DNA of 45,065 nt. It comes from Flavobacteriales bacterium. GTDB taxonomy: Bacteria > Bacteroidota > Bacteroidia > Flavobacteriales_E > Vicingaceae. Shown piece after piece: positions 9,183-40,321 of the stretch (position 1 is its first letter; each line of letters starts with the position of its first letter). Below the pieces are notes generated by a model. It was not told the DNA's origin and ran no database searches. It was given only the letters and a program-made list of their open reading frames with translations. The stretch lies in NCBI GenBank assembly GCA_029262875.1, contig JAJCYO010000163.1, positions 1-45,065 on the forward strand, written 5' to 3'. The translations under genes and the position numbers were made by a program.

Positions 9183-10526
9183 TTAAAAATCAAATGTCAT
9201 CCGTTTTCCTCGAAAATCCTCATCTATTTCCCCCATGTTAAACACCAAATGGCCGTTAACAAAAGTTTGCATCACTTTGGATTTAAATGTTTGCCCTTCC
9301 ATAGGAGACCAACCACATTTATAGAGTAGGTTTTCTTTTTCAACCGTCCAAGGATTGTCAATGTCTACCACCACTAAGTCAGCATAAAAACCTTCTTTAA
9401 TGTAACCCCTTTCTTCAATTTTGAAACAATCAGCTACGGCATGGCTCATTTTTTCTACCATTTTTTCTAAAGAAATTTTGCCATTGTGGTAATGCTCCAA
9501 CATAGCGACTAAAGCATGTTGTACCATTGGTCCACCCGAAGCCGACTTAAAATAAGTATTTAGCTTTTCTTCAACTGTATGAGGTGCATGGTCTGTAGCA
9601 ATAACATCTATAGTTCCATCTATTACTGCATTTAGAATCGCATCTCTATCAGAGGATTTTTTTACTGCAGGGTTCCATTTAATAAAGGCTCCTTTAGATT
9701 CATAATCTTCATCAGAAAACCACATGTGATGAATACAAGCTTCAGCGGTAATGCGTTTTTCTTTTAAAGGAGTTTCATTTTCCAACAGGCCAATTTCTTT
9801 AGCTGTAGATAAGTGGAATAAATGAAAACGGGTGTTGTGTTTTTTCGCTAATTCAATAGCCAATGAGGATGATAAATAACAAGCTTCTTCACTTCTTATT
9901 TCTGGATGACATTCAATGGGTACATCCTCACCATATTTTTCTTTGTAGGCAGCCATATTGTTTCTGATGGTCGTTTCATCTTCACAATGGGCAGCAATTA
10001 ATAACTTACATTTTGAAAAAAGTTCTTCTAAGGTTTCTTTGTTGTCAACCAACATGTTTCCAGTAGAGGAACCCATAAACACTTTTACACCACAAACCGT
10101 TTTAGGGTCTGTTTTTAATACTTCTTCAATGTTATCGTTAGAAGCTCCCATGTAGAAGGAGTAGTTTGCTAAAGAAGTTTTAGCTCCAATATTGTATTTA
10201 TCTTGTAATAACTCTTGTGTTAAGGTATTGGGAACCGTATTTGGCATCTCCATAAAAGAGGTGGTTCCTCCAGCAATTGCAGCAGTAGACTCTGTGTTAA
10301 TGTTCGCTTTATGGGTTAACCCAGGTTCCCGAAAATGGCACTGATCATCAATAACCCCTGGTAACAAGTAATTGTTATGGATATCAATTACTTCATGTCC
10401 TTCTTCATTAAAAATATGATCAGAAGCTTTATATATTTTACTTATTCGTTCTCCTTCGATTAATAAATGACCATTAAAAATAGTTCCTTCATTAACTATT
10501 TGAGCATTTTTTAGTAGTGTTCCCAT
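9183..10526 (-). CDS. pyrC: Dihydroorotase
   Basis: The 447-residue amidohydrolase fits class I dihydroorotase, which interconverts carbamoyl aspartate and dihydroorotate in pyrimidine synthesis. Landmarks are DDQCHFREPGLTHK (60-73), the metal-bridging lysine region VKVFMGSSTGNM (Lys148), AAHCEDE (His180), HLFHLSTAKE (His238) and IATDHAPHT (Asp312). In most relatives the first motif is DxHxH; here the first His position is Gln62, so the metal site differs from the textbook one. From memory this DDQxHFREPG version is common in Bacteroidota, so it probably does not mean loss of activity. Related amidohydrolases (allantoinase, hydantoinase) are possible, but the REPG and GGPMVQHAL segments favour dihydroorotase. 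It lies 48 bases upstream of the glycosyltransferase reading order. Confidence 0.88.
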   Translation of the reverse strand: MGTLLKNAQIVNEGTIFNGHLLIEGERISKIYKASDHIFNEEGHEVIDIHNNYLLPGVIDDQCHFREPGLTHKANINTESTAAIAGGTTSFMEMPNTVPNTLTQELLQDKYNIGAKTSLANYSFYMGASNDNIEEVLKTDPKTVCGVKVFMGSSTGNMLVDNKETLEELFSKCKLLIAAHCEDETTIRNNMAAYKEKYGEDVPIECHPEIRSEEACYLSSSLAIELAKKHNTRFHLFHLSTAKEIGLLENETPLKEKRITAEACIHHMWFSDEDYESKGAFIKWNPAVKKSSDRDAILNAVIDGTIDVIATDHAPHTVEEKLNTYFKSASGGPMVQHALVAMLEHYHNGKISLEKMVEKMSHAVADCFKIEERGYIKEGFYADLVVVDIDNPWTVEKENLLYKCGWSPMEGQTFKSKVMQTFVNGHLVFNMGEIDEDFRGKRMTFDF

Positions 10527-10574
10527 GGGTGTAAAATTACAAAATGGAACTTCGAGAAAGGAATAAGGTTTGGT

Positions 10575-11306
10575 TTATTTCTGATATTTTCTGAACCAAC
10601 TTTTCATTTTCATTTGGATCACTCCAAAAATGGCTTCTTTAAAAATCCCACCACTCATTTTAGATTCTCCTTCTTGTCTGTCGGTAAAAATAATAGGTAC
10701 TTCAACAATGTTAAACCCGAATTTACAAGCAGTAAATTTCATTTCGATTTGGAAGGCATACCCTTTAAATTTTATAGCATCCAAATCAATGGTTTCTAAT
10801 ACTTTTCGAGTATAGCATTTAAAGCCAGAGGTAGTATCCCTAATGTCCATTCCGGTAATTATTCGAACATAAGCAGAAGCATAATAAGACATTAGGACTC
10901 TTCCCATAGGCCAGTTAACCACATTTACTCCAGATTTGTAGCGTGATCCAATGGATAAATCGGCACCATCTTTTGCGCAAGCATTATACAATTGGATGAG
11001 GTCTTCTGGGTTGTGAGAAAAATCACAATCCATTTCAAAAATGTATTGATAGTTGCGTTTTAATGACCATTTAAATCCATGAATGTATGCTGTTCCTAAC
11101 CCTAATTTTCCACTTCGTTCTTCAAGGTGCAACTGATCGGTAAATTCGGTTTGTAATTTTTTTACAATAGCTGCAGTTCCGTCAGGGGATCCATCATCCA
11201 CAATCAAAATATGAAAGTCCTTGTCTAAAGAAAATACTTTGCGTACCATCTTTTCCAGGTTTTCCTTTTCGTTGTAGGTTGGTATAATTACAATACTATC
11301 TGACAT
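10575..11306 (-). CDS. Dpm1-like polyprenol monophosphomannose synthase (GT2)
   Basis: The 243-residue protein is a GT-A-fold family 2 glycosyltransferase of the dolichol/polyprenol-phosphate mannose synthase type. It starts IVIIPTYNEKENL, has the nucleotide-sugar motif LIVDDGSPDGT (Asp37, Asp38), the metal-binding FEMDCDFSHNP (Asp93, Asp95), the acceptor region DTTSGFKCYTRKVL, and FTDRQEGESKMS near the C-terminus. No membrane anchor is present, as in the soluble Dpm1 type. It would transfer mannose or a related sugar from a nucleotide donor to a lipid phosphate at the cytoplasmic face. The exact sugar is not readable. It precedes the dihydroorotase gene in the direction of transcription. Confidence 0.88.
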   Translation of the reverse strand: MSDSIVIIPTYNEKENLEKMVRKVFSLDKDFHILIVDDGSPDGTAAIVKKLQTEFTDQLHLEERSGKLGLGTAYIHGFKWSLKRNYQYIFEMDCDFSHNPEDLIQLYNACAKDGADLSIGSRYKSGVNVVNWPMGRVLMSYYASAYVRIITGMDIRDTTSGFKCYTRKVLETIDLDAIKFKGYAFQIEMKFTACKFGFNIVEVPIIFTDRQEGESKMSGGIFKEAIFGVIQMKMKSWFRKYQK

Positions 11307-13599: not shown

Positions 13600-14229
13600 C
13601 TAAGGGTTTTCATCATTATATCTTATTTGGGGAAGAGAGATATTAAATTTAATCACCAACAAGCGTGCTATAATCATTAACAATATTGGAATAATTTGAA
13701 GAATAGGATTATCTACTTGAAGTTTTAACAGAATAAAATAAATTGCTCCTCCTGCGATACTAATGGTGGCATAAATTTCTTTTTTAAAAATTACTGGAGT
13801 TTCATTCACAAGCACGTCTCTTAATACACCACCAAAAGATCCTGTAATGGTTCCTAAAACCATGCAACTCAACGGGTGTAACCCTGTCTCAATTCCGATC
13901 TGATTTCCTGTAATGGTAAATAACCCTAAACCAATTGCATCAAATAGTAGTAGTGACTTATTAAATCTATTCAATTTATTTTTGAAAAGAATTGCAATCA
14001 ATACTCCTCCTAAAATAAAAAAGAGATGAGTTGGGTTATTTAGCCAAAAAACAGATTTTTCAGTTAAAAGAATATCACGAATTGTACCTCCACCAACTGC
14101 CGTTACAAAACCAATAATTAGTATTCCAAATGGATCAAATTTTTTATTTATAGCTTTAAGTGCTCCAGAAATGGCGAAGGTAAATAATCCTATAAACCCG
14201 ATATATTCAATTATAGTTTCCATAGTCAT
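13600..14229 (-). CDS. TRIC-like (UPF0126/YicG) cation channel
   Basis: The 209-residue protein has about seven hydrophobic segments arranged as two homologous halves, with the glycine-rich repeats VTAVGGGTIRDILL (42-55) and TITGSFGGVLRDVLV (127-141) that define the UPF0126/trimeric intracellular cation channel family. Prokaryotic TRIC proteins form homotrimeric monovalent-cation channels in the inner membrane. Its ATG lies immediately next to the aroF stop codon (no spacer), so it is probably co-transcribed with the trp operon; an alternative start two codons downstream (METII) is possible. There is no known link to aromatic amino acid synthesis. Confidence 0.88.
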   Translation of the reverse strand: MTMETIIEYIGFIGLFTFAISGALKAINKKFDPFGILIIGFVTAVGGGTIRDILLTEKSVFWLNNPTHLFFILGGVLIAILFKNKLNRFNKSLLLFDAIGLGLFTITGNQIGIETGLHPLSCMVLGTITGSFGGVLRDVLVNETPVIFKKEIYATISIAGGAIYFILLKLQVDNPILQIIPILLMIIARLLVIKFNISLPQIRYNDENP

Positions 14230-15240
14230 CTAAAGATTAGTTACAAGTTGTCTTGTTTGATGTATTTGTTGATACAGCTTTTCAGCCTGTTGATAATATA
14301 GTGTTTGTTGTCCATCAGAAAACGCGATTTCCGGGTTTTCATGTGTTTCGATGATAATTCCATCTGCTCCACACATTACTCCTGCTAAAGCCATAGTAGC
14401 AACATGTTGTCGTAATCCAATTCCATGTGAAGGATCGACAATAACAGGTAAATGAGACTTTTCCTTTAAAATAGGAATAGCATTTAAATCTAATGTGTTG
14501 CGGTACGCTTTTTCATATGTTCGAATACCTCTTTCACATAATAGTATTTTTTCATTTCCGTTAGAAAAAACATATTCTGCTGAGGCCAATAACTCTTCTA
14601 TTGTTCCTGACATGCCACGTTTTATCATTACGGGTTTGTCTACTTTTCCTAATATATCTAATAGGTTAAAGTTTTGAGAGTTTCGTGCTCCAACTTGAAA
14701 AATGTCAACATAGTCTACCATTTCTTCTACTTGTGAGACTTGCATGACTTCAGTAATTACTTTAATCCCATTTTCTGAACAGTGTTTGTAAAATAATTTC
14801 AGGCCTTCCATTCCCATTCCACGAAAAGCATAAGGAGAACTGCGGGGTTTGTAAACTCCGCCACGCATTATTTTGATGTTATTTTTCAGTAAATGTTGAA
14901 CAGTATTTTCAATTTGCTCTTCTCCCTCAATAGAACAAGGTCCAGCCATAATTGCCAATTCATTTCCTCCAATGGTAACATCATCACCTAAATCAATTAT
15001 AGTCTCATTCACTTTCCATTTTTTTGAAACCAATTTATAATCATCTGAAACACGGTGAATGTCTTCAATACCATTTAGATTCCCAATGTTTCTTAGATCA
15101 AAATCTACTTTAGGTATTCCAACAATGTAGTTTTTAAATTGTGTTGAAATAAGGTTTGATTTAATGTTTAAATCGGATAGCTTATTGATTAACACTTCTT
15201 TTTCAGAAGAAGTAATGTTATCTGATAGTTGAATAATCAT
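14230..15240 (-). CDS. aroF: 3-deoxy-7-phosphoheptulonate (DAHP) synthase
   Basis: The 336-residue enzyme joins phosphoenolpyruvate and erythrose 4-phosphate in the first step of the shikimate pathway. An N-terminal ferredoxin-like/ACT-like regulatory domain (about 1-75) precedes a catalytic barrel of the short type I-beta (AroA-beta) family: AGPCSIEGEEQI (from 99), RGGVYKPRSSPYAFRGMG (126-143), QVGARNSQNF, KRGMSGTIEELL, and IVDPSHGIGLR. Domain order is like the Thermotoga enzyme, where the N-terminal domain gives feedback inhibition. Its start overlaps the trpA stop by four bases, so it belongs to the trp operon and the attenuator upstream of trpE should also control entry into the pathway. 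Confidence 0.93.
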   Translation of the reverse strand: MIIQLSDNITSSEKEVLINKLSDLNIKSNLISTQFKNYIVGIPKVDFDLRNIGNLNGIEDIHRVSDDYKLVSKKWKVNETIIDLGDDVTIGGNELAIMAGPCSIEGEEQIENTVQHLLKNNIKIMRGGVYKPRSSPYAFRGMGMEGLKLFYKHCSENGIKVITEVMQVSQVEEMVDYVDIFQVGARNSQNFNLLDILGKVDKPVMIKRGMSGTIEELLASAEYVFSNGNEKILLCERGIRTYEKAYRNTLDLNAIPILKEKSHLPVIVDPSHGIGLRQHVATMALAGVMCGADGIIIETHENPEIAFSDGQQTLYYQQAEKLYQQIHQTRQLVTNL

Positions 15241-26599: not shown

Positions 26600-27238
26600 T
26601 TATACTAATCCGTTACTAAGAGCATACTTAACAAGCTCTGCGGTATTTTTTAGGTTTAACTTCTTTATAATATTTCGCCTGTGAGATTCAACGGTTCGAT
26701 CACTTATGTAAAGTTCTTTAGCAATTTCTCTATTCGTGTTCCCATTTGTAATGGATTTCAACACTTGAATTTCTCTATCTGATAAAACAGGTTCAACAAT
26801 TTTATCTTCATTCAACAGAACATTTATCAACTTTATAGAGACTTCATTACTATAATATTTTTCCTTTCTGTAAACAGTTTTTATTGCGTCAATTAGTTTT
26901 TCTCTACCTGAGTCTTTTAGAATATAGCCTAATGCTCCTGCTTTTATCATTTTCATGATATATGCTTCTTCAGAGTGCATTGTAAGTGCCAAAATATTTA
27001 TTTTAGGGTAAAGTTTAACGATGATTTCCGTGGCATCAATACCGCTCATTTCTGGCATAGTAATATCCATAAGGATTAGATCGATTTCATTAGCATTTTT
27101 TCCTAAATAATCAATAGCTTCTCTACCATTGCTACACTCATCGACAACCTTAATATTATTTGTGGTATTAATGATTGATTTAATACCATCACGTATTAGT
27201 TTGTGATCATCAACTAATAGTATTTTAATTTCTTTCAT
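26600..27238 (-). CDS. NarL/LuxR-family response regulator
   Basis: The 212-residue protein has a receiver (1-120) with the acid pair LVDDH, phosphoacceptor Asp58 in LMDITMPEMSG, the switch Thr in LALTMHSEE and Lys in GYILKDSG, then a LuxR-type HTH (about 148-210; LSDREIQVLKSITNGNTNREIA and ISDRTVESHRRNI). It is the last gene of the five-gene minus operon, ten bases after the receiver-PAS-kinase, so it is the probable output of that phosphorelay. It is closely similar to the regulator at 39680-40321. Targets unknown; TACGTA sites in nearby intergenic regions are candidates. Confidence 0.93.
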   Translation of the reverse strand: MKEIKILLVDDHKLIRDGIKSIINTTNNIKVVDECSNGREAIDYLGKNANEIDLILMDITMPEMSGIDATEIIVKLYPKINILALTMHSEEAYIMKMIKAGALGYILKDSGREKLIDAIKTVYRKEKYYSNEVSIKLINVLLNEDKIVEPVLSDREIQVLKSITNGNTNREIAKELYISDRTVESHRRNIIKKLNLKNTAELVKYALSNGLV

Positions 27239-27248
27239 GACGTATTAT

Positions 27249-28631
27249 TTAATTTAAATGGATTGGAAAAGCGATATCAAACTCAGTCCCTTCATTTTTA
27301 ATGCTATTTATTTTTATATTTCCCTTAAAAGAATCAATACGAGTTTGAATATTGTTTAACCCATGTCCTTTAAACAATTCCATGTCATTAATGTTAAAAC
27401 CAATTCCATTATCTTTTAAATTTAAGGTGATGCTTTCATTATTGTTTTCTAATTCAATCCGAACTTCTGTTGCTTCACTATGTTTGATGCTGTTATTAAT
27501 AAATTCTTGAATAATTCTAAAAATAGAAATTTCTAATGATTTAGTTATTGCAGGAAATGCATTGTCAGCTTTAAAAACAATCATAAAATCCAAGCTAAAA
27601 ACATTTGATTGTAATTCTTCAATTGCTTTTATAAGCCCATATTCTTGGAGTACAAGAGGTAGGGTGTTAAAACAAATCCTTCTTAAATCTTGAATAGCTT
27701 CCTGTAATATTTCTGGTATTGTTGCTAATTCATTTTCGATACCATTGTTTTGGTTATGATTAGCTTTTAAACTCTCTATTTGCAACTTTATTGCAGCTAA
27801 AGATTGTCCAACTCCATCATGTAGATCACGAGAAATTCTCTCTCTTTCCTGTTCTTGAGTCTCAATGGTTTTCTTAAGCAATAACTGATTCATTTTACTT
27901 CGTTCAGTGATATCTTTTATGATGGCTTGATAACTAATTATTTCTCCAAAATTGTTAGTTATTTTATTGGCAGATATTAGGCAATTCCTAATCTCATTAT
28001 TTTTCCCATACATTTGGCATTCATAACCATTAATTATCCCTTTAGAATTTAATTTTTTAATAATTTGTATTGCATCATTTTTGTCCTTCAGAATGGAACT
28101 GAGTGCAACTAAATTTAATGCTCTACTATTGTCAAAAAGGTTGACAGCAGCTTTATTAAAATCAATAATACGCCCCTTCAAATCGAATAAAAGAATAGGG
28201 TCTGATGAGTCAGCAAATACTTTCCTGTATTTAAGATTCAATTTATTATTTTGTTCTTCGAGGTAGTAAAGATGATAAGCATTTTCGATGGTAAGTTTTA
28301 AATCATAATCATTCCATGGTTTTGCTACATACCGATAAACCCTTCCTCTGTTTATTGCATCAATAACTGCATTAATATCACTGTAAGCGGTCAATAATAT
28401 TCTAATTGGATTTGGGTGCAAATCTAAAATTGATTCGAAAAAATCAACACCTGTTTTACCAGGCATTCTCTGATCGGCAATAACAACTTCAATGGGTTTT
28501 GTTTTTAAGATGTCATACCCCTCATTGGCTGAGGTTGCTGTATAAATTTCAAACTGCCTCCTAAAAGAGGCTTTAAAAGCATTTAGATTGCTAACCTCAT
28601 CATCAATATATAATACCTTAATTTTCTCCAT
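27249..28631 (-). CDS. Hybrid receiver-PAS-histidine kinase (HisKA_3), soluble
   Basis: The 460-residue protein has an N-terminal receiver (1-120; VLYIDDEVSNLNAFKASF, Asp53 in ADQRMPGKTG), a PAS domain (about 135-245), a HisKA_3 dimerisation/phosphorylation helix with His271 in RISRDLHDGVGQSLAAIKLQ, and a HATPase (FINNSIKHSE, LKDNGIGF, GHGLNNIQTRI). No membrane segment is present. With the receiver in front, it looks like an intermediate: it can be phosphorylated by the neighbouring membrane kinase and in turn control its own kinase activity towards the LuxR regulator. This flow is inference. Its start overlaps the upstream kinase gene by 14 bases. The receiver is near-duplicate to the stand-alone receiver at 33993. 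Confidence 0.92.
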   Translation of the reverse strand: MEKIKVLYIDDEVSNLNAFKASFRRQFEIYTATSANEGYDILKTKPIEVVIADQRMPGKTGVDFFESILDLHPNPIRILLTAYSDINAVIDAINRGRVYRYVAKPWNDYDLKLTIENAYHLYYLEEQNNKLNLKYRKVFADSSDPILLFDLKGRIIDFNKAAVNLFDNSRALNLVALSSILKDKNDAIQIIKKLNSKGIINGYECQMYGKNNEIRNCLISANKITNNFGEIISYQAIIKDITERSKMNQLLLKKTIETQEQERERISRDLHDGVGQSLAAIKLQIESLKANHNQNNGIENELATIPEILQEAIQDLRRICFNTLPLVLQEYGLIKAIEELQSNVFSLDFMIVFKADNAFPAITKSLEISIFRIIQEFINNSIKHSEATEVRIELENNNESITLNLKDNGIGFNINDMELFKGHGLNNIQTRIDSFKGNIKINSIKNEGTEFDIAFPIHLN

Positions 28632-30768
28632 CAGTTTCTCTTTTTATCGGAATTTCAACAATCATCTCTGTGCCCACATTTACTTCAGAATTTACCGTGA
28701 TTTTTCCGTTATGATTTTCAATTATATTTCTGACAATAGATAAGCCTAAGCCAGTTCCTTCACCTACATCTTTAGTCGTAAAAAATGGATCGAATAACTT
28801 ATTTTTTATATCATTAGCAATGCCTACTCCATTGTCTTTTATGGTTAATAAAATTGTTTTGTTGTTGCTTTCAGTTATAAGGTCAATCAATCCATTCTCA
28901 ATACCTCTTTCTTTTATAGCATAGATAGCGTTATCAATAAGGTTCATTGCCAATTGATTAATTTTTCCTGGATTACATTCAATAGGCGGAATATCTCCAA
29001 ATGATTTACTTACTTTAATTCCATTCAATTTATTTTTAATTAAAACCAATGTAGATGCTAATCCTTCATTAATATCTGCTTTTTTCAATTCTCCTTCATC
29101 TAAACGTGAAAAATTCCTAAGACCACTAACAATTTCAGTTGTACGTTTTGCTCCATCTTCAATACCATCAATAATGGTTGATAATTCTGTTTTTAAGTAA
29201 CCGAAATCAAGCTCTTTTTTTAATGCGTCTATTTCTTTTAGCTTTTCTTCAATGTTATCTACATTTTTTAGTTCTTCACATTTTTCAATTATGGCATTTA
29301 CATCCTCTATATCTTGACGTAACGGAGCAATATTTGAAGAAACAAAATTGATAGGGTTGTTAATTTCATGAGCAATACCAGCAGTTAATTGGCCTAAAGA
29401 AGACATTTTTTCGGCATCAACTAATTGAGATTGAGCTTCTTTTAAATCACTTAAGGTCAGATTTAATTCGGTCGTTCTTTCTTCAACTTTTTGCTCCAAT
29501 ACAATATTTTGGTCTCTTATAATTTTTTCGTTTTCTTTTAATACTTCTACCGTTTTCTGTTGAGATTCTTCTTTTTCTTTTTTATAAATGTTTATTCTGG
29601 CAGCTAAAGCAAATGATAGTAATATGGTTTCTATGGCAGAACCTATTTGCATGGTGTAGCGGGTAAAATTATTAAAAGGCAGCACCTCAAAATCTTTCAG
29701 AATATAAATGATAACACCAGAAAGAAAAATAACCCAGGCTACCAAGAAATATTTTGCTGGTTGATAGCCTCTCTTTACAATTTTTATCGTTGTAATTAGC
29801 ATATATATTGAGACAATCATAGCGTTAACTTCCATTATAATGAAACTTATCTTATATGATTGAAAAAGAGCAAAAAATATTGAGACTATGTAAGGAATAG
29901 ATAGTAAAAAAGATAGATTGAAAAGCGTTTTATAATAGAATTTTACTTTCAAGAAAACATTCATAAACACCATCGATGCGATTCCTACCAAGGAAGGGAA
30001 AATGAATAGGCTATTTTGAGCAACTTTAGGATGGTTTGGCCATAAATACTGGAATGGATAACCCTGAAGGCTTGTTTGTGTTAGTAATATTAGAATAATG
30101 TAAACTACATAATAGACATAGCTCTTATCTTTTACTGAAAAGTAGATAAATAGATTATATAGAATCATTACCATCATTAACCCAAAATAGCTTCCTGACA
30201 AAATATCTTTTTTCTTAACTTGATTCAGAATAACGGATTTGCTTCCGACAGAGATTGGAAGTTGTATAGCTTCTTTACTTGATATCTTCAGATAATATGT
30301 TTCAGTTTTTTCCTTTTGGATGTATAAATCAAAAAGATAATCAGGGTCTTTATATTTCCTGTCGTAAAAGGGAAGTTGCTCGCCAGCATTAATTGATGTG
30401 TAGTTGTTCGTATTGGAATTCGGATAGTAAAAAATCAAATTATCTAATGTAGGTAATGCCAAGTTTAACATTAGTTGGGGTTGGTTTGTTAAATTTTTAA
30501 TAGAAAATTTGATCCAGAAAGTAGATTCGGAAATCCCTAAATTTGGCACCTGATTTTTTGTGCTGATAAACTTTTTAGAGAGAACTTCTTCAATTCCTAA
30601 TGCATTAGATTCGTCTTCATAAATTAATAAAGATGATCCAATTGATTTAATCTCATTAATGTTTTCATACTCTATTGTGTTTTTGGCAACAGCATTTTGA
30701 GTTATCAAATAAAAAAGAGACAATAACATTACCTTGAAATAATATGTTGAAGTAATTAACTTATTCAT
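28618..30768 (-). CDS. 7TMR-DISM sensor histidine kinase
   Basis: The 716-residue protein has a signal-like N-terminus (1-29), a periplasmic 7TMR-DISMED2-type jelly-roll (about 32-180; STFWIKFSIKNLT, LDNLIFYYPN, TYYLKISSKEAIQLPI), seven membrane helices (about 192-395), a coiled coil (395-455) and a kinase: HisKA with His467 in LTAGIAHEINNPINFV, and HATPase boxes NLIDNAIYA, DNGVGI, FFTTKDVGEGTGLGLSIV. DISM extracytoplasmic domains usually bind small molecules such as carbohydrates. The start overlaps the GNAT-like gene by ATGA (four bases). It is the only membrane-spanning sensor in the operon and so the probable input. Confidence 0.93.
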   Translation of the reverse strand: MNKLITSTYYFKVMLLSLFYLITQNAVAKNTIEYENINEIKSIGSSLLIYEDESNALGIEEVLSKKFISTKNQVPNLGISESTFWIKFSIKNLTNQPQLMLNLALPTLDNLIFYYPNSNTNNYTSINAGEQLPFYDRKYKDPDYLFDLYIQKEKTETYYLKISSKEAIQLPISVGSKSVILNQVKKKDILSGSYFGLMMVMILYNLFIYFSVKDKSYVYYVVYIILILLTQTSLQGYPFQYLWPNHPKVAQNSLFIFPSLVGIASMVFMNVFLKVKFYYKTLFNLSFLLSIPYIVSIFFALFQSYKISFIIMEVNAMIVSIYMLITTIKIVKRGYQPAKYFLVAWVIFLSGVIIYILKDFEVLPFNNFTRYTMQIGSAIETILLSFALAARINIYKKEKEESQQKTVEVLKENEKIIRDQNIVLEQKVEERTTELNLTLSDLKEAQSQLVDAEKMSSLGQLTAGIAHEINNPINFVSSNIAPLRQDIEDVNAIIEKCEELKNVDNIEEKLKEIDALKKELDFGYLKTELSTIIDGIEDGAKRTTEIVSGLRNFSRLDEGELKKADINEGLASTLVLIKNKLNGIKVSKSFGDIPPIECNPGKINQLAMNLIDNAIYAIKERGIENGLIDLITESNNKTILLTIKDNGVGIANDIKNKLFDPFFTTKDVGEGTGLGLSIVRNIIENHNGKITVNSEVNVGTEMIVEIPIKRETDGEN

Positions 30769-31514
30769 ACGATAGTGTTATTATCTATAGCCTTATAGTT
30801 TACTTGTGAAACGTTATCATAAACAAGTTGATAAGAAATAGTAGATTTAAAACCTCTATTTATTTCGATTCTAGTTTGATTAGGGGTATCTCTTAAGGAC
30901 AACATAACATCTTTATCAGATTGTGCTGCGGTTTCTATAGTTATTGCATTTAATATTCCTATAACATGAGCAATATAATTGCTATTGGGATAAGGAAAAT
31001 CCCCATGATTGCCAAGAGATTCGTCAATAACAAATCCGATTTCACCAAATAATTTCAAGGTATATCCAGCGCAGATGCCAAGCATGGTGCTGAAATTTAA
31101 CTGGATGGCAGAAGAAATTGACGCCCACATTAAATATCTACTAATACCTAAATTTTTTACTTTTTTTGAAATCCATAAACCACAAGATTCACCTATACCT
31201 CCATTTAAGGCATAATGGGTTACTTTACTATAGATAGTTCCATCCATTTTTCCAACTGCTTCTTCAACCGGTAATGGATGGATTCCATCAGCAATTTGAA
31301 TCCTAACCCCTCCTACTAACACTTTAGACTGATTGTCCTGAGCTACTACACAATAAATGTTAGGATTTTTCGCCCATAAATTATTATTGGTTGTAACATT
31401 AGTAATTCCATAATCTGTTAAGACCTTTACATGCCCATCAATGTATTGTTCGCACAATTCAGGTTCATCAATGGCTCTAAATGCAAAAACGTTATATTCT
31501 TGTGTTTTACTCAT
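30765..31514 (-). CDS. GNAT-fold acyltransferase-like protein
   Basis: The 249-residue protein is not a member of a family I can name with certainty. The layout fits a GNAT/autoinducer-synthase (N-acyl amino acid synthase) fold: an N-terminal part with a substrate-facing helix, a beta strand block YCVVAQDNQSKVLVGGVRIQ (54-73), and SCGLWISKKVKNLGISRYLM (110-129), where KNLGIS lies in the place of the CoA pyrophosphate loop, followed by an amphipathic helix and LFGEIGFVID. There is no signal or membrane segment. It overlaps the E1/nitroreductase gene by eight bases and the sensor kinase by four, so it is strictly coupled to both. What it acylates, if anything, is unknown. Confidence 0.6.
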   Translation of the reverse strand: MSKTQEYNVFAFRAIDEPELCEQYIDGHVKVLTDYGITNVTTNNNLWAKNPNIYCVVAQDNQSKVLVGGVRIQIADGIHPLPVEEAVGKMDGTIYSKVTHYALNGGIGESCGLWISKKVKNLGISRYLMWASISSAIQLNFSTMLGICAGYTLKLFGEIGFVIDESLGNHGDFPYPNSNYIAHVIGILNAITIETAAQSDKDVMLSLRDTPNQTRIEINRGFKSTISYQLVYDNVSQVNYKAIDNNTIV

Positions 31515-33852
31515 ACATTAAAACATCTTTTACATATCTTCTCAATGCTTTTACTTTAGGGTCTTTTACAGATGCTAATCGAAAGAAAAAAACATCCTTT
31601 TCATTAGATGCCATGCCAGTAACTTGTTTCAACTTGTCGTATTGAACAACCATTTCATTTTTTATTTCTTCAATATCATCAAAATTACCATCTCCTACTT
31701 TTGCAAATAAAAATGTATTTATAGACATAGGTTGAAAAGCAATTCCTCTTTCGGAAGAAGCTAACCAGAGTTTTTGAATGGCTCTTCCTCCATCAAAAAA
31801 ATTGTCAGCATCAAATTTTGGCATAGTAATCATTCCAAGTGCTGAAGCACTATCTATTGCTTTTTTAGACAGTTTACCAAATTCATTACCCAACTTCCAT
31901 TTCTTAATATGTTTGGTGACATTCCAATTTTTAGAAACAATTAATCCTGCTCTTTCTGTTGGTGTTAAATCAATAGTATTAATATCAATACCATCTCTAG
32001 TTTCTTCCACTTCCTTTTTATTCCATCGAATTTCATGTATAAAATGTGTATGACCGGCTTTATTTGTCATGAATAGCTTGTCCACTTCAGCCAATATTTC
32101 TTTTAACTCTTCTATTTTAATGGCGTCTTTAAATATTTTCAGTTTAGCACCATTTATTGATCTTACGACTTCGTTGAAATATTTTTCATCTTCTTCTTTT
32201 AGAGGGACTCTTTCTCCTAAATTTCTGTTAGTTAACCTTGTAGGAACTACTTCTATTAAATTATCATGGATATGTTTTTCTACGTTTTCGGATGCGTTTT
32301 TATAAAATGTAAATATGGCGATTAAATCATTACCAGAACCTAAAGGAAATTTATTTAACTCGACTTCATAGCCCATTTGATGTGCTTTTAAAATTAAATT
32401 TTCCGTTGCAGCACCAATACTTATAAGCGAGGCAGTATTTTTATAGTTTAAAATGGATTCAGATCTATTAACGTCATTAAATAGCATCAATTTTTTATTT
32501 TTAAATAACCATTTCCATGGCTGAACATTCCCTCCAGAAGGAGCCATAATTGCATATTTCACTAATTCTTCAACTTCTACATTAAGTAAATCACAACTGG
32601 AACTACTATTATGAGCAAATAATTTTTCATTCACTTCCTTTAGTGCTTCTAAATAATCTTCTATATTGGTCTTAGGGATAAAATTGACTTGTTCTTTTTT
32701 TACCTTATTTGCAGAGATATAATCTTTAACACTATCGTTAATCTGTTCTTCTGTATCTACAAAATATCTACCTGATTTTGTAAATTGATTGAGTAAAATC
32801 CTGCGGCAAACATCGGTACAAATACCTCCACCAAAAATAACACCCGATGCCAATTGTGGCCATGTAGTAATGGTATCTTCAATTTCGAGCATTGATGCTT
32901 TTAACCTTTCTGAGGAAGTTTCAACTCCAAGCATCGGTAATAAATAAGGTACTTTCTCTTCATTGGTTTTGGCTTCTTTTACCAATGTTAAGTCTAAATG
33001 GTCAATTAACCCATGCAAAATGGGTAAATCAGGTTCTAGATCAAAACGTTCAATGTCAGTAGTTCCTCTGTCACTAGAATTCATTACTACAGGAATACCC
33101 AATTCCTTTGCTTTTTGACGAGCAAATATTTTAGTGTGTAACCCATCACAAACCTCAATGCATATATCCAGTTGTCCATTTTTAGTGAAAAAGTCGGTAA
33201 CATTTTCTTCTGTTAACCCATCATGCATACAGGTTACTTTTAAAAAAGGATCTATTTCCGCAATTTCTCTGGCAACAACAATGGTCTTTTTTACACCAAA
33301 ATTCTGAACTCCGGTTTGAATTCGATTTAAGTTAGAAAGTTCAATGATATCAAAATCAGCAATGACTAATTCTCCGCAAATACGTTCTAATGCAATTGTT
33401 AAAGCTATGGCTTTACCAACAGATAATCCAATTATTCCAATTTTTTTATCTGCCAAAATTTCTTCTTCTTCAGGAGTTATTTTGTACTGATTACGATTAG
33501 TACGTACCTCAATAAACTCTTCTTTATCTAACAAATGAATGAGTTTGTTTAACCATGGATAATATATCCAAATCCCGTATTCATCTATAGGGGTATTATC
33601 TAAATGATTTTCAATTGTCTGGTTCAGTTCGTCTGGAGTAAATTTCTTTTTAGGGTGTCTTAACTTTATGAGCTCTTCTAATTGTCCATTTATTTCATCA
33701 CATACCTCAATTGTAGGATTATTTTTTAATAATTCGAAAAGTTCATCTTTGGATTTTTCTATGTATAAATTGAAAAAAATAGGAGTATATACTTGCTCCT
33801 CGGGAACAACCTTATTATCTGATAACCAATTTGTAATAGATTTTTCCATCAA
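31507..33852 (-). CDS. E1/ThiF-like adenylyltransferase fused to nitroreductase (Rv1355c-like)
   Basis: The 781-residue protein has three parts: an N-terminal region (1-130) of unknown type; an E1/ThiF/MoeB-like Rossmann domain (about 135-355) with IGIIGLSVGKAIAL, the acidic strand end ADFDIIELSNLNRIQTG (NLNR corresponds to the MoeB/ThiF NLQRQ motif with the Arg finger) and ICIEVCDGL; and a nitroreductase/FMN domain (about 425-775), starting VKYAIMAPSGGNVQPWKW. The architecture is that of Rv1355c-family proteins (MoeY in mycobacteria). The nucleotide loop GLSVG departs from GxGGxG, and no CxxC zinc pairs are obvious. E1-like enzymes adenylate C-terminal carboxylates; nitroreductase-like domains oxidise or reduce with FMN. 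A peptide-modifying role, as in azoline-forming clusters, is conceivable but no precursor or YcaO gene is nearby. First gene of the operon. Confidence 0.85.
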   Translation of the reverse strand: MMEKSITNWLSDNKVVPEEQVYTPIFFNLYIEKSKDELFELLKNNPTIEVCDEINGQLEELIKLRHPKKKFTPDELNQTIENHLDNTPIDEYGIWIYYPWLNKLIHLLDKEEFIEVRTNRNQYKITPEEEEILADKKIGIIGLSVGKAIALTIALERICGELVIADFDIIELSNLNRIQTGVQNFGVKKTIVVAREIAEIDPFLKVTCMHDGLTEENVTDFFTKNGQLDICIEVCDGLHTKIFARQKAKELGIPVVMNSSDRGTTDIERFDLEPDLPILHGLIDHLDLTLVKEAKTNEEKVPYLLPMLGVETSSERLKASMLEIEDTITTWPQLASGVIFGGGICTDVCRRILLNQFTKSGRYFVDTEEQINDSVKDYISANKVKKEQVNFIPKTNIEDYLEALKEVNEKLFAHNSSSSCDLLNVEVEELVKYAIMAPSGGNVQPWKWLFKNKKLMLFNDVNRSESILNYKNTASLISIGAATENLILKAHQMGYEVELNKFPLGSGNDLIAIFTFYKNASENVEKHIHDNLIEVVPTRLTNRNLGERVPLKEEDEKYFNEVVRSINGAKLKIFKDAIKIEELKEILAEVDKLFMTNKAGHTHFIHEIRWNKKEVEETRDGIDINTIDLTPTERAGLIVSKNWNVTKHIKKWKLGNEFGKLSKKAIDSASALGMITMPKFDADNFFDGGRAIQKLWLASSERGIAFQPMSINTFLFAKVGDGNFDDIEEIKNEMVVQYDKLKQVTGMASNEKDVFFFRLASVKDPKVKALRRYVKDVLMYE

Positions 33853-33908
33853 CTTTATTTCAATTTCAAACTAAATAATTAATATTAGTGAAAATAATAA
33901 TATTTTTG

Positions 33909-33926
33909 CTACGTATTTATACCGAT
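33909..33926. promoter_or_regulatory. Half-conserved TACGTA operator in a divergent region
   Basis: CTACGTAT-TT-ATACCGAT stands between the divergent E1 operon and receiver gene. The left arm equals the arm of the perfect palindrome at 35894-35911 with the same two-base centre; the right arm matches in its first four bases. It may be a response-regulator site controlling one or both genes. Confidence 0.35.
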
Positions 33927-33992
33927 ATTGAATTAATTAAAATACGGATGATTTTGATGTAATCTTTTCTTAATTTAATCGTATAATGAGCT

Positions 33993-34466
33993 ATGGAAGA
34001 GAGCAAAAAAAATAAAATTAATGTGCTTTATGTTGACGATGAAGTAAGTAATTTGTCAGCATTTAAAGCTTCTTATCGTAGGGTGTACAACGTTTTTATT
34101 GCTGAATCTGCTAAAGAAGGGAAGAAAATTCTCGATGAAGACGATATTGAAATTATTTTAACAGATCAACGAATGCCAGAAATGACAGGAGTAGAGTTTT
34201 TGCAATCCATTATTACAACGCATCCAAACCCTATACGAATTTTAGTTACTGGTTACTCTGATATAGATGCGGTTATTAATGCGGTTAATGAAGGGCAGAT
34301 TTATAAATACATTTCTAAACCTTGGGATAATGAATCCCTCAAAATGACGATCAATCAAGCTTATGAAGTTTATAGTTTGCGTAAGGAAAATCAAGAATTA
34401 ACCAAAAGTCTAATTCAAGCCAATAAACAATTAGAGTTTATGCTCCGCCAAAAATTAATTTCTTAA
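33993..34466 (+). CDS. Stand-alone receiver-domain response regulator
   Basis: The 157-residue protein is one receiver domain (about 9-128) plus a short coiled-coil-like tail (RKENQELTKSLIQANKQLEF) and no DNA-binding or enzymatic output. The phosphoacceptor is Asp58 in LTDQRMPEMTGVEF, with VLYVDDEVSNLSAFKASY in front and ISKPW at the lysine. It is much more similar to the receiver of the hybrid kinase at 27249-28631 than to general receivers (shared DDEVSNLxAFKAS, HPNPIRIL, AVI.A.N.G). It is divergent from the E1 operon and converges on the next gene with adjacent stop codons. A role as phosphate sink or adaptor in the same relay is plausible. Confidence 0.9.
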   Translation: MEESKKNKINVLYVDDEVSNLSAFKASYRRVYNVFIAESAKEGKKILDEDDIEIILTDQRMPEMTGVEFLQSIITTHPNPIRILVTGYSDIDAVINAVNEGQIYKYISKPWDNESLKMTINQAYEVYSLRKENQELTKSLIQANKQLEFMLRQKLIS

Positions 34467-35711
34467 TTATCGGTATAATTTTTCTTTCAAAAACTGACCA
34501 TCTTTAGTCATTACATTTAAAATGTAAATTCCAGAAGAATTGTTTGATAAGGATAAATTGTAAATATCATTAACGGAGACATCCTCAAAAACTAATTTCC
34601 CATTAATATCATAAACCATAATTTGTTTGTTGGAGTGCTCAGCTGTTATCAATTGGTAATTCCCGTTTCCTAAATTAGCTAATTGAATATTTTCAGTATT
34701 GATGTTGTTAATTGATGTAATTACATTTGGTGATTGTAAAACCGTGATTTGCTTTGTATTGTCCTCGGTGCAATTATTATTACTTGCAGAAAGCGTAACA
34801 ACGTAATTTCCAGTTGAAGAATAGTTGTAAATAGGACTGATGTCAAAACTGGAACCACCATCACCAAAATCCCAAGTATAGTTTTGAGCATTTAACGAAT
34901 TGTTGGTTGTGTTAATTTCCCCACCTTCCGAAATATAAACGGTATCTTTATTAAGGTTAAAATCTGAAGTTAAATTTGCAGCAGGACTAATGGTAAAAGA
35001 AAATTCATCCACAATTCCTTTACTACTCACTTGTGCAGTGTAATTCCCTGGAAGTAAATTATTGTAATTGTTAAGGCTTGAGTTTGAGTTATTGTTTACA
35101 ATGGTATTATTAGCTGCATCCAATATTTGAATATCCCAATCTGTATTTCCTGCATTGTTGACCATTATAGATCCATCATTCATGTTAAAGCAAGTTTCGT
35201 TCGTTGGGGTAGTAACTAAAGATGTAGAAATATTAAAAGTAAAAGAAGGGGAATTCTGTTGTGTATTAAAATTGAAAACTAAAGAAGTATCTCCTAATAT
35301 TCTATAGTGAGTTGTAGATGAAATATCTGTTAAGCTTATTTTATAGTTAGAGGTTAGTGCAAAAATTTCTTCTATGTCTATTGTATAAATACCGTTTGCT
35401 GGAATGTTGGTGTAGATTGTAATTGACATGTCTTCAGTAAATTCTGGCAAAGCATTAATCGATAATTCTTGTCCTGGAGTTATTTGTGTGTATATAGAAG
35501 GTACATTTGGATTTGGGCTAAATAATTTCCAAGCATCATAGCTTCCATCAAAATTTTGAGAAGCTCCATTTACTAACCTTATAATAGTTTCATCGGAATA
35601 GTTGTTACCAGAAATTTTGAATCTAAAAGCGTTGTTGTTTTGAGTAAAAGCCGTTAAGCTTATTAAACTGATAAGAATTAAAGTAGCAATCTTTTTATAT
35701 ACATTTTTCAT
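34467..35711 (-). CDS. Secreted PKD protein with T9SS type A sorting domain
   Basis: The 414-residue protein has a signal peptide (about 1-23, ending TAFT), an N-terminal region of about 210 residues without clear family that contains FRFKISGNNYSDETIIRLVN and SYDAWKLFS (typical of Bacteroidota surface proteins), a PKD domain (about 250-330; QNYTWDFGDGGSS, GNYVVTLSASN) and a C-terminal type A T9SS domain (IMVYDINGKLVFEDV, SSGIYILNVMTKDG, KEKLYR). It is therefore exported to the surface or medium. It lies between two signalling loci and may belong to their regulon; ligand unknown. Confidence 0.85.
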   Translation of the reverse strand: MKNVYKKIATLILISLISLTAFTQNNNAFRFKISGNNYSDETIIRLVNGASQNFDGSYDAWKLFSPNPNVPSIYTQITPGQELSINALPEFTEDMSITIYTNIPANGIYTIDIEEIFALTSNYKISLTDISSTTHYRILGDTSLVFNFNTQQNSPSFTFNISTSLVTTPTNETCFNMNDGSIMVNNAGNTDWDIQILDAANNTIVNNNSNSSLNNYNNLLPGNYTAQVSSKGIVDEFSFTISPAANLTSDFNLNKDTVYISEGGEINTTNNSLNAQNYTWDFGDGGSSFDISPIYNYSSTGNYVVTLSASNNNCTEDNTKQITVLQSPNVITSINNINTENIQLANLGNGNYQLITAEHSNKQIMVYDINGKLVFEDVSVNDIYNLSLSNNSSGIYILNVMTKDGQFLKEKLYR

Positions 35712-35911: not shown

Positions 35912-35992
35912 ATAATGATTCTTAATTTCAGTAAAACAGGGTATTGTCGCTTACCTTTTTTATTTAGAAATTTATCAGTATTAAAACTTTAC

Positions 35993-38900
35993 ATGTATAA
36001 GGAATCAGAAAATACTGAAACAGTTAATATTGAGCTTGCCGAAAAGGACAATAGGTTTGATAATAAGCTTATACAATTATTCAAAAAATCAGGGAAAAAT
36101 TATTTTGACCAGTTAGTTCTTTTTTTATGCGAAGAAACAGGTACAAAATATGCTTTTATTGGAAAATACAACGAAAATAATCATACTGTATCAACTCATT
36201 CTTTCTATGCGAATAATACTTATGTAGAGGAATTTGAGTATGATTTAGAAAATACACCTTGTAATACGGTTATTGATAGTGAGTTGTGTATTTACCCTAA
36301 GAGTGTACAACAGTCTTTTCCAAAAGATGAAGAATTAAAAACTTTTGGAATAGAAGGTTATATCGGGTTGCCCCTTTTTGATTTGAGTGAGAATGCGGTT
36401 GGAATTGTTGTCGTAATGGACGATAAACCTTTTAAAGAGGTTGAACAATTGAAAAATTTATTAAGTCTGGTTGAAAGTAAAACGGAATTCGAATTGGAAA
36501 GGATAGCCTTAAAAAACGAATTGATATTATCAAACAAAAGTTTTCAAGAAGTCTTTGAGAATTTTCAAGATGTATTTTTCTTGATAGATTATAATAAAAA
36601 TAATGAACAAGTAGAATTAGTGATATCTCCATCTGTTGAAAAAACGTTGGGTTATACAATAGAGGAGATTAGAAGTTTAAATTTTGGTGATTTTTATGCT
36701 GAACCTGGCGAAAGGAAGGCTTTTCTTCAATTGATTAAAATTGAGAAGAAGGTTAAAAATTATCCATTGGCCTTTAAAAAGAAGGATGGGAGCTTACTAC
36801 ATGTCGAGGTAGATTGTGAATTAATTGACGGAGATGAATCAAAAAAAATAGCTTTTTCTTTAAGGGGAGTATTAAAAGATGTAACGGAAAAATACATAGA
36901 GAATTTAAGGATTGAGATGGCATATTTGATTGCTGAAAAATCTCAAAGAAGGTTGACAAATATTAGGTTGTTGGCGGAATTCATTCAAGGCACCCTAAGT
37001 AAAGTTATGAATGTTTCTAATTTTTATATCGCCTTACATGATTCCAAGAAGAATGAGCTTTATATGCCTGTTTTTACAGATGAGAATTCTAAAGAATTTG
37101 GGGCTGAATATAGAGTTCCTTTTTCCAATGGCCTTACCGAATATATCATCAAATCTAGAAATGTAATAGTTAAGGATAAAAAAGGATTACAAGAAATAAT
37201 TAAAAAAGAGAGGCTGATCGTGAGAGGAGAACTTTCTGAATGTTATGTTGGTGTGCCATTGAAAGGGGAAGGGAAATGTTTTGGTGTAATGGTGATGCAG
37301 TCTTACATAAAAGGGTATCATTTTACCAAAGAAGACATTGAATTGTTGAAGTTTATTTCCATTCAGGTTGCATATGTTATTGAGCGAACACAATGGCAAG
37401 AGGCGCTTATTAAAAAAGAAAATCACTATCGTTCATTGGTAGAAAATTCATCAGAAATTATAGGGATAATTAATGAAGAAGGTACCATACTTTATGTTAG
37501 TGAATCTTCAGAAAAAATTATAGGCTATAGACCAATAGAACTAATGGGAAAAAATATCACTGATTTTATCAAATTAGAAAATTCTACAGAACTTATAAAA
37601 AACAGAGCTGCTAAATCTCATAGTAGTAGGACTGATATATTAAAGATATACGACAAAAAGGGGCATAAAAAATATTTAGAAATATCTTTAAATAAAGATA
37701 GAAATAAGAGCAATGAATTAATATTTAATGCCAAAGATGTAACAGAAAGCGTTATTTCGACAAAGAAAAATGAATTTGCTCAAAAAAGGTTAAATACTTT
37801 ACATCAAATAGAAAAGGCACTGTTGTCAACAAAGCCTTTTTCTGAGATGTTAAATGATGCCTTAAAAATAATTACCAAAAATGTATTGGATGTAGATAGA
37901 GTAAGTGTAGGTTTACTTGATTACGATAACGAAAGAGCAGAGGTTTTAGTACTTAAAACGAAGTATAAAACGATTAATGGAATAAAGGTTGGAGATTTTA
38001 TCTCTTTTAAAGAGTTAACTTGTTTAGAAACAATTTTAAATCAAAAACCTTTTTACATAGGTGATATTAGTAAGTTAAAGCATGTGAATGAATCGGATAA
38101 AAAGAATGGTGAAGATGGAATTAAATCCTATTATATACGCCCCATTGTAATTAATAAGAAGGTAATAGGAACCTTTAATTTTGGATCCAAAACCATTAAT
38201 TATTTTAAAAAGGTAGATGAAGATTTGTTAGAAGAAGTTACTCAATTGGTAGCAGTTGTAATTCATGATGCGATATTGAAAAAAGAATTGGCCAATCGGG
38301 AATCAGATTTAACTGATATATTTAATTACACTACAGAAGGGATAGTAAAAACAAGCAAAGAAGGTAAGTTTATGTTTGTGAACAAACGTTTATGTGAAAT
38401 GCTTGGTTATACCGAGAAGGAGTTGTTAAAAAAAGATTTTAAAGACATTACTTATGAACATGATTTAAAACGAAGCATAACCTTATTTGAAAAGATTCAG
38501 GAAGAAAAAATAACAGATTACAGTTTTGATAAAAAATATTTGCATAAAAATGGTAATGTCATAGATTGTCATGTTACAGTAAAGTGGACTTTTGATACTG
38601 CCGATAAAGTAGATTATAGTATCGCATTTATTGCGGACAAAACGGAGGAAAGAAAAGCTCAAAAACGAGTGTTGGATTTAAGGAGTGCATTAGATAGTAC
38701 TTCGGCAGTATTTTTCACAAATGCTAAAGGACAAATTAAAGACATCAATAAAAGATTAGAAATTCTTTCTGGTTATAGCAGAAAAGAAATTATTGGAAAA
38801 ACACCAAAAATATTTAACTCTGATTATCATTCAAGAAAGGAATGGAAACTTTTCTGGGCAACCATAAAAGCGGGAAAAACTTTTAAAGGTGAAATTAGAA

Positions 38901-39667
38901 ATAGAAAAAAGGACGGTTCAATTTATTGGATTTATGTAACCGTGTCACCAATTGTAAACGATAAGGGGATAATAGACCAATACATTTCAATACAAATTGA
39001 TATTACAGAAGAAAAAAGGGTTAAAAACAACTTGATTAAAGAAGTTATTGAAGCACAAGAACATGAAAGAGAACGATTTGCGATGGAGATTCATGATGGA
39101 TTAGGGCAAGTATTGTTGGCTACTAAAATGAATTTAAGCGCAGTGAGCGACTCAAGTGATGGCCTGGACATTGAATCAAAAAAAGTACTTAATAATTCTA
39201 TTGATCTATTAACTCAAGCAGTTCAAGAAGCAAGAAGCATTTCTCATGGATTAATGAGTAGGTTATTAAGCCAGTTTGGCTTGGCTTATGCGGTTAATGA
39301 AATAGTAGGTAGTATAAATACATCGTCATGTTTAAACTTTACATTTAATCATAACATTAAGGATGTTCGATTTGAGGAGGAAATAGAAATGGGTATTTAC
39401 AGAACTCTGCAAGAGCTTATTAAAAATATAATTAAACATTCAAAAGCGACCAAGGCAAACTTAAGTGTGATAAAAAAAGGTAAGGAATTATCTATTGAAA
39501 TTGAAGACAATGGTGTCGGTATAGCAGAAGGAACATTAAGAAACCCTAAAAGCGGAGGAATAGGATTAAGAAACATGAGATCGAGAATAGAATATTTGGG
39601 TGGAGCGTTTGAAATTGACAATAAAATTAAAAAAGGAACCAAAATAAAAATTAATATTTCATTATAA
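35993..39667 (+). CDS. Cytoplasmic multi-GAF/PAS histidine kinase (HisKA_3)
   Basis: The start is placed at 35993 (MYKESENTETV), giving 1224 residues; a frame from 35915 adds 26 residues but begins almost in the palindrome. Domains in order are GAF (about 35-165), PAS (182-305), GAF (320-465), PAS (480-590), GAF (595-765), PAS (770-890), PAS (895-1020), HisKA_3 with His1034 in ERFAMEIHDGLGQVLLATKM, and HATPase (IKNIIKHSKA, IEDNGVGIAEG, GGIGLRNMRSRI). There is no signal peptide or membrane span, so seven stacked ligand- or redox-sensing modules act in the cytosol. It is 12 bases upstream of the LuxR regulator, its likely partner. The HisKA_3 core is homologous to that of the hybrid kinase at 27249. 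Ligands unknown. Confidence 0.9.
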   Translation: MYKESENTETVNIELAEKDNRFDNKLIQLFKKSGKNYFDQLVLFLCEETGTKYAFIGKYNENNHTVSTHSFYANNTYVEEFEYDLENTPCNTVIDSELCIYPKSVQQSFPKDEELKTFGIEGYIGLPLFDLSENAVGIVVVMDDKPFKEVEQLKNLLSLVESKTEFELERIALKNELILSNKSFQEVFENFQDVFFLIDYNKNNEQVELVISPSVEKTLGYTIEEIRSLNFGDFYAEPGERKAFLQLIKIEKKVKNYPLAFKKKDGSLLHVEVDCELIDGDESKKIAFSLRGVLKDVTEKYIENLRIEMAYLIAEKSQRRLTNIRLLAEFIQGTLSKVMNVSNFYIALHDSKKNELYMPVFTDENSKEFGAEYRVPFSNGLTEYIIKSRNVIVKDKKGLQEIIKKERLIVRGELSECYVGVPLKGEGKCFGVMVMQSYIKGYHFTKEDIELLKFISIQVAYVIERTQWQEALIKKENHYRSLVENSSEIIGIINEEGTILYVSESSEKIIGYRPIELMGKNITDFIKLENSTELIKNRAAKSHSSRTDILKIYDKKGHKKYLEISLNKDRNKSNELIFNAKDVTESVISTKKNEFAQKRLNTLHQIEKALLSTKPFSEMLNDALKIITKNVLDVDRVSVGLLDYDNERAEVLVLKTKYKTINGIKVGDFISFKELTCLETILNQKPFYIGDISKLKHVNESDKKNGEDGIKSYYIRPIVINKKVIGTFNFGSKTINYFKKVDEDLLEEVTQLVAVVIHDAILKKELANRESDLTDIFNYTTEGIVKTSKEGKFMFVNKRLCEMLGYTEKELLKKDFKDITYEHDLKRSITLFEKIQEEKITDYSFDKKYLHKNGNVIDCHVTVKWTFDTADKVDYSIAFIADKTEERKAQKRVLDLRSALDSTSAVFFTNAKGQIKDINKRLEILSGYSRKEIIGKTPKIFNSDYHSRKEWKLFWATIKAGKTFKGEIRNRKKDGSIYWIYVTVSPIVNDKGIIDQYISIQIDITEEKRVKNNLIKEVIEAQEHERERFAMEIHDGLGQVLLATKMNLSAVSDSSDGLDIESKKVLNNSIDLLTQAVQEARSISHGLMSRLLSQFGLAYAVNEIVGSINTSSCLNFTFNHNIKDVRFEEEIEMGIYRTLQELIKNIIKHSKATKANLSVIKKGKELSIEIEDNGVGIAEGTLRNPKSGGIGLRNMRSRIEYLGGAFEIDNKIKKGTKIKINISL

Positions 39668-39679
39668 AAAACAGATATT

Positions 39680-40321
39680 ATGAGTACAATAAAATTATTA
39701 TTAGCGGATGATCATCTAATTATCAGGGATGGTATTAAATTAATGCTCAAGAAGAATCCAGAATTTGAAATTGTTGCTGAAGCAAGTAATGGAAAAGAGG
39801 TAATTAATTACCTTACCAATAATTCTGATTCAATTGACGTTGTGTTGATGGATATTAATATGCCAGAAATGAATGGGATTGATGCTACAGAGTTTATTGC
39901 TGAAAACTTTAAAAATGTTAACGTTTTAGCCTTGACAATGCACGCAGAAGAAACCTACATAACGAGTATGCTAAAGGTTGGTGCATTAGGGTATATTTTA
40001 AAAGAATCAGGAACAGATGAATTGATTTCAGCGATTAAGGTAGTCGCTTCAGGGCAAAAATATTATAGCAATGAAGTGTCTGTTACCATGATCAATTCAT
40101 TGATGAATGGCGAAAAGCCAAAATCTTCGGCATTATCCGAAAGAGAAACTGAAGTATTAGGATACATTGCAGGTGGGTCTACCAATAAGGAAGTAGGAGA
40201 TATATTGTGCATTAGTGGAAGAACGGTAGAAACCCACAGAAGAAACATATTGTCAAAACTTGAAGTGAGAAATACAGCGGAAATGATACGTTATGCAATC
40301 GAAAATAATTTGGTTGCTTAA
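39680..40321 (+). CDS. NarL/LuxR-family response regulator
   Basis: The 213-residue regulator has a receiver with LLADDHLIIRDG, Asp58 in LMDINMPEMNG, Thr in LALTMHAEE and Lys in GYILKESG, then a LuxR HTH (LSERETEVLGYIAGGSTNKEVG, ISGRTVETHRRNI). It follows the multi-sensor kinase after 12 bases, forming a cognate pair. It is a clear paralogue of the regulator at 26600-27238: IDYLGKN.. against INYLTNN.., and a nearly equal recognition helix RTVExHRRNI, so both may bind similar sites, such as the TACGTA palindromes close by. Confidence 0.94.
   Translation: MSTIKLLLADDHLIIRDGIKLMLKKNPEFEIVAEASNGKEVINYLTNNSDSIDVVLMDINMPEMNGIDATEFIAENFKNVNVLALTMHAEETYITSMLKVGALGYILKESGTDELISAIKVVASGQKYYSNEVSVTMINSLMNGEKPKSSALSERETEVLGYIAGGSTNKEVGDILCISGRTVETHRRNILSKLEVRNTAEMIRYAIENNLVA

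Follow-up and report, generated by a model that had tools for sequence, protein, structure and literature searches.

Why should enzymes that could make a small molecule be bound into one operon with a phosphorelay? The question is raised by a locus on contig JAJCYO010000163.1 (assembly GCA_029262875.1) of a Flavobacteriales bacterium, which was analysed within a stretch of 45,065 nucleotides, hereafter called the window. The first-pass annotation had described five genes encoding an E1-nitroreductase, a GNAT-like protein, a 7TMR-DISM sensor histidine kinase, a receiver-PAS-kinase and a LuxR-type regulator. It had guessed that the enzymes make a signal sensed by the DISM kinase or else modify a partner. 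The analysis presented here indicates that the locus is probably a synthase-plus-receptor cassette, in which the DISM sensor binds what the adjacent enzymes produce, an autoinducer-like derivative of an N-acyl amino acid.

The five open reading frames were confirmed on the minus strand at 31507–33852, 30765–31514, 28618–30768, 27249–28631 and 26600–27238. Successive overlaps along the operon are 8, 4 and 14 bases and the final spacing is 10 bases, exactly as annotated, and the domain assignments of all five proteins hold in Pfam and NCBIfam. The first gene carries a TTG start at 33852 with an ATG immediately behind it at 33849, and therefore the E1-nitroreductase protein (31507–33849) is probably 780 amino acids long. 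While the five genes are real, the unit is better counted as six. A lone divergent receiver of 157 amino acids (33993–34466, plus strand; Pfam Response_reg) is a conserved neighbour, present in 77 of 94 acyltransferase loci, and covaries with the kinase half of the DISM kinase.

Judged by its sequence, the E1-nitroreductase is of the Rv1355c/TrzS/OxzB type. Enzymes of this family, in which a ThiF cyclase and a flavin oxidase are joined in one protein, form oxazolones from N-acyl amino acids. The window enzyme contains the Pfam domains ThiF and Nitroreductase and matched NCBIfam NF005901, the Rv1355c family to which TrzS belongs, over residues 18–779 with 746.6 bits (cut-off 476). Residues D235, R608 and Q706 (ATG numbering) align with D217, R540 and Q651 of M. 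smegmatis TrzS, a correspondence set by motif and offset through plasmid-borne mycobacterial homologues and not from the M. smegmatis sequence itself. All three TrzS residues (Asp217, Arg540, Gln651) were shown to be necessary (PMC12856293). Rv1355c is TrzS; its partner is the acyltransferase TrzA (Rv1356c), and the two produce N-acyl tryptazolones, and the products of OxzAB are tyrazolones and phenazolones (PMC12856293, PMC10404671). The cassette resembles TrzAS and OxzAB in the cyclase-oxidase fusion, in the conserved catalytic residues and in the N-acyltransferase gene (30765–31514) that adjoins the ThiF-oxidase gene, here with the 8-base overlap. It differs from trzAS in its kinases: the published account has c-di-GMP genes alongside, and in a text search of it neither histidine kinases nor two-component systems came up (PMC12856293). 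Actinobacterial plasmid homologues are about 30% identical.

Among these actinobacterial loci, a GGDEF gene lies close to the Rv1355c homologue of a Rhodococcus plasmid (L176, 2964–3944), and mycobacterial plasmid homologues (L137, L175) adjoin P450 and TetR genes. A gene beside a Rhodococcus Rv1355c homologue aligned with our acyltransferase profile (hhalign probability 82%, E 1.1e-5), and the TY66 downstream gene gave no match. Streptomyces ThiF proteins (L138, 5167–8081; L139, 5938–7736) are about 39–44% identical to the cyclase half of the window enzyme and have a KASIII gene or a different GNAT gene as neighbours.

The partner of the ThiF-oxidase, the GNAT-fold protein, was modelled with AlphaFold2 at a pLDDT of 90.3. 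The top Foldseek matches were the acyl-homoserine lactone (AHL) synthases BjaI, MesI, RpaI and EsaI together with FeeM (BjaI, E 5e-9), and the best by alignment Z was FeeM (2g0b; Z 17.5, rmsd 2.4 across 177 residues). The structural likeness to AHL synthases and FeeM for which the first-pass annotation had proposed to look was thus borne out. LuxI-family AHL synthases and FeeM have the GNAT-type fold in common with the cassette protein but differ from it in family: neither the Pfam autoinducer-synthase nor the FeeM family matched any of 36 acyltransferase members, for which only weak GNAT matches were obtained. A PDB sequence search with the acyltransferase profile returned nothing significant, and the link to FeeM and AHL synthases is therefore one of fold. 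From this model the protein is predicted to be an N-acyl amino acid synthase of the FeeM/OxzA/TrzA type. One cassette, L036, holds two acyltransferase paralogues (13610–14368 and 10391–11146).

The DISM kinase (28618–30768) showed matches far above the Pfam cut-offs for its DISMED2 periplasmic domain (PF07696), seven-transmembrane (7TM) region (PF07695) and kinase core (HisKA, PF00512; HATPase, PF02518). The model of its sensor part reached a pLDDT of 94.1, and the periplasmic part resembles RetS (3jyb) most closely. The DISMED2-plus-7TM architecture is that of the RetS/SagS-type kinases, for which we know of no linkage to an acyltransferase. Matches of the 7TM region to Wntless and to G protein-coupled receptors were set aside because of low TM-scores and are not treated as evidence. 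Downstream follow a soluble histidine kinase with the Pfam order receiver-PAS-HisKA_3-HATPase (27249–28631) and a NarL/LuxR-type response regulator (26600–27238; Response_reg, GerE), the likely transcriptional output. Phospho-acceptor residues are visible in both kinases and all receivers, among them the motif AHEINNP of the DISM kinase and, in the soluble kinase, the receiver Asp (ADQRMPG) and the His (RDLHDG).

Does this composition recur? A screen of the phylum found the acyltransferase in 13 of 395 Bacteroidota genomes, and every one of the 13 had a DISM sensor on the same strand, no more than about 1.4 kb away; ThiF adjoined the acyltransferase in 11. Any DISM sensor at E<=1e-30 was present in 72 of the 395 genomes, and with 1–4 sensors per genome of about 4 Mb we estimate chance adjacency at well under 1% each. 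Considering all non-redundant acyltransferase loci with complete flanks, a DISM kinase was found nearby on the same strand in 93 of 94. Because the profile was built from loci found via ThiF-oxidase or DISM hits, this last figure carries some ascertainment bias; the 13 of 13 carries less of it, yet comes from the same profile. The order divergent receiver, ThiF(-oxidase), acyltransferase, DISM kinase, receiver-kinase is kept in relatives from other genera and families. Gene content and order recurring in many Bacteroidota families argue for co-occurrence beyond chance, and the rare co-occurrence of enzymes and kinases that would have counted against the first-pass annotation was not found. Among the cassette genes labelled, no exporter or additional biosynthetic gene recurs.

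Loci that lack the acyltransferase tell which gene the sensor accompanies. Four loci (L053, L057, L089, L103) have complete flanks and a ThiF-oxidase but lack the acyltransferase. In all four the DISM kinase is absent as well, and hence the linkage follows the acyltransferase and not ThiF. The ThiF-oxidases of L053 and L057 are about 60% identical to that of the window, and the former adjoins an MscS channel gene and a weak GCS2-like ligase gene. L089 is from Cohnella panacarvi (Bacillota), with a homologue of 42% identity. Distant acyltransferases in L167–L170 are paired with a FAD oxidase or a ThiF-oxidase; L167 and L168 end at contig ends. In L134 a receiver-SpoIIE phosphatase gene (3772–5115) stands downstream of the kinase genes, at the place of the NarL regulator in the window.

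While the acyltransferase and the DISM kinase remain constant, the enzyme between acyltransferase and divergent receiver changes. The slot of the window's ThiF-oxidase is elsewhere occupied by ThiF alone or by unrelated enzymes, namely a soluble methyltransferase, an ICMT-type membrane carboxyl methyltransferase (PF04140, E 1.5e-19; phmmer to 4a2n, E 3e-15) or a FAD-binding oxidase. At least 18 changes of tailoring type were counted on the acyltransferase tree, a quick tree with several long branches; its starred branches force at least seven changes for ThiF-only, at least three for the FAD oxidase and at least two for each methyltransferase type. The FAD-oxidase cassette L050 keeps a 156-amino-acid ThiF remnant (9816–10286), as if a replacement were under way. 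A carboxylate is the actual or plausible target in three of the tailoring chemistries. The shared product may therefore be an N-acyl amino acid with its carboxyl group masked; in this respect it would be comparable to the acyl-homoserine lactones.

The sensor changes along with the enzymes. Rank correlations of patristic tree distances across 67 loci revealed an enzyme-sensor block (ThiF with 7TM, 0.63; GNAT with 7TM, 0.55) and a kinase-receiver block (histidine kinase core with divergent receiver, 0.57), whereas 7TM and kinase core, although parts of one polypeptide, correlate at just 0.34. Given GNAT and ThiF, the latter value drops to 0.04 (permutation p 0.31), while GNAT with 7TM remains at 0.46 given kinase core and receiver (p 0.001); both p values are optimistic because the loci are phylogenetically non-independent. 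Subsampling and clade jackknife with 60 loci left the main pattern stable. In same-genus pairs the level of identity along the DISM kinase shifts at the junction of the 7TM and kinase parts, around residue 400. L131, a methyltransferase-type cassette from the genus of the window, is 28% identical to the window in GNAT, 42% in 7TM, 70% in the kinase core and 77% in the receiver, and L036, of the window's own type and genus, gives 71%, 74%, 53% and 59%, respectively. When L131 is compared with L050, the acyltransferases are 62% identical, the tailoring enzymes differ, and the sensors share 22% in the extracellular domain and 38% in 7TM, as if the sensor followed the final product.

The following order of events is what we infer from this. 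The GNAT enzyme would acylate an amino acid, with acyl-CoA or acyl-ACP as donor; the ThiF domain would adenylate the carboxylate and close the N-acyl amino acid into an oxazolone ring, which the flavin oxidase would then desaturate. In the sister cassettes, tailoring would be done by ThiF alone, by the soluble methyltransferase or by the ICMT-type carboxyl methyltransferase. The resulting neutral lipid would be bound by the DISM kinase through its sensor half, the 7TM bundle being the probable site. Phosphate would pass from this kinase to the divergent lone receiver, to the receiver domain of the second kinase or to both. Finally, the HisKA_3 kinase would hand phosphate to the NarL-type regulator and so to a putative regulon.

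Comparable arrangements exist. In LuxM/LuxN, AinS/AinR and CqsA/CqsS the gene of a signal synthase adjoins that of a sensor kinase that crosses the membrane several times and feeds into a phosphorelay. The cassette shares this pairing and, to judge by linkage and covariation, may respond to its own product; it differs from these Vibrio systems in enzyme chemistry, in the DISM sensor, in the Bacteroidota host and in its swappable tailoring. It also differs from LuxI/LuxR quorum sensing, since its regulator has a receiver domain instead of an autoinducer-binding domain. In the pherotype loci Agr and ComX-ComP, the genes for synthesis diversify in step with the sensor half, while the kinase half and the regulator are conserved. 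Enzymes and sensor half covary likewise in the cassette, although those loci signal with peptides and the cassette is predicted to use an acyl amino acid derivative. Two findings, the exchange of the tailoring enzyme and the covariation of sensor and enzymes, favour the guess that the DISM kinase senses a signal made by the enzymes, the signal itself being a prediction. A broader proposal, to which we give slightly less than even weight, is a Bacteroidota-wide acyl-amino-acid quorum sensing with interchangeable tailoring (oxazolone, methyl ester and others), matching 7TM halves and distinct pherotypes within one genus.

Several observations, besides the optimistic p values, weigh against a synthase-plus-receptor cassette. 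The main one is that the characterised DISM sensor SagS is reported to be linked to glucose-6-phosphate (PMC8544897); the periplasmic domain in the window, too, weakly resembles carbohydrate-binding modules. The mycobacterial tryptazolone is found mainly in cells and not in the supernatant (PMC12856293). No obvious carboxylate masking is seen in the FAD-oxidase cassettes, L169 and L170, in one family, have distant acyltransferases with no DISM kinase nearby, and many cassettes finish with a lone receiver and not with a DNA-binding regulator.

It might be, then, that the kinases merely regulate the enzymes, an envelope or environmental cue such as a sugar acting through the DISM sensor to turn on production of a lipid that has some other function, for example as a constituent of membranes, an antioxidant or an antimicrobial. 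A known DISM ligand (PMC8544897), the RetS-like periplasmic fold and the carbohydrate-binding-module likeness suggest sugars. Pathway-specific regulators beside biosynthetic genes are common, and the kinase and enzyme genes overlap. Regulation by such a cue does not predict, however, that the sensor half tracks the enzymes rather than its own kinase half, nor that the sensor diverges upon a tailoring swap within one genus, and we regard it as unlikely. Equally unlikely appears product feedback alone, a sub-case overlapping the proposal of a synthase with its receptor, in which the kinase would monitor build-up of the lipid inside the cell or in the membrane and balance its synthesis with no cell-to-cell role. 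This fits all covariation data as well as the enrichment of tryptazolones in cells (PMC12856293), but explains poorly the repeated swaps of product type and sensor, which look like pherotype diversification. Modification of a protein or peptide partner such as a signalling protein, the second guess of the first-pass annotation, is improbable: E1-like enzymes often activate protein C termini and the GNAT fold also matches protein acetyltransferases, yet at lower Z than FeeM and the AHL synthases, the Rv1355c family match spans the whole protein with the tested residues conserved, and no carrier protein or peptide gene was seen within the conserved cassette. Chance or passive co-inheritance can be dismissed for practical purposes. 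An acyltransferase tree that does not track taxonomy closely allows that the block moves as a unit, but adjacency in 13 of 13 and 93 of 94 cases over many families, with internal replacements that leave the remaining order intact, speaks against unrelated genes.

The region between operon and divergent receiver (33853–33992) is, by its position, a probable shared regulatory region. No perfect Bacteroidota promoter match was found in it; across the window this pattern occurred no more often than by chance, and a sigma-70-type scan gave fewer sites than shuffled sequences. Promoter evidence is therefore neutral. Past the divergent receiver lies a T9SS-sorted PKD-domain protein (34467–35711), present also in L049 and L050, and then, just beyond the cassette (35915–40321), a 1250-amino-acid multi-PAS/GAF HisKA_3 kinase followed after 12 bases by a second NarL-type regulator (39680–40321). 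The arrangement of this kinase and regulator is similar in L049.

The first-pass annotation knew of no described system with this composition. As regards the enzyme pair this does not stand, OxzAB and TrzAS being of the same kind (PMC12856293); the linked sensor kinase was not found in the literature. Searches of open-licence papers returned no report of a kinase linkage or of a swappable cassette, and nothing on AHL synthases in Pedobacter or Bacteroidetes. To our knowledge, no dedicated synthase and receptor genes for AHL-type signalling are known in Bacteroidota. The enzyme chemistry itself is already published. The physiological role of bacterial oxazolones has been called a major unresolved question, and signalling was raised as a possible role by the same authors (PMC12856293). 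The locus offers a testable candidate receptor for oxazolone-like lipids and possibly a new ligand class for 7TMR-DISM kinases. Its relatives provide a natural set of swapped synthase/sensor pairs that is useful for work on specificity, and the cassette may be a chemically distinct counterpart of quorum sensing.

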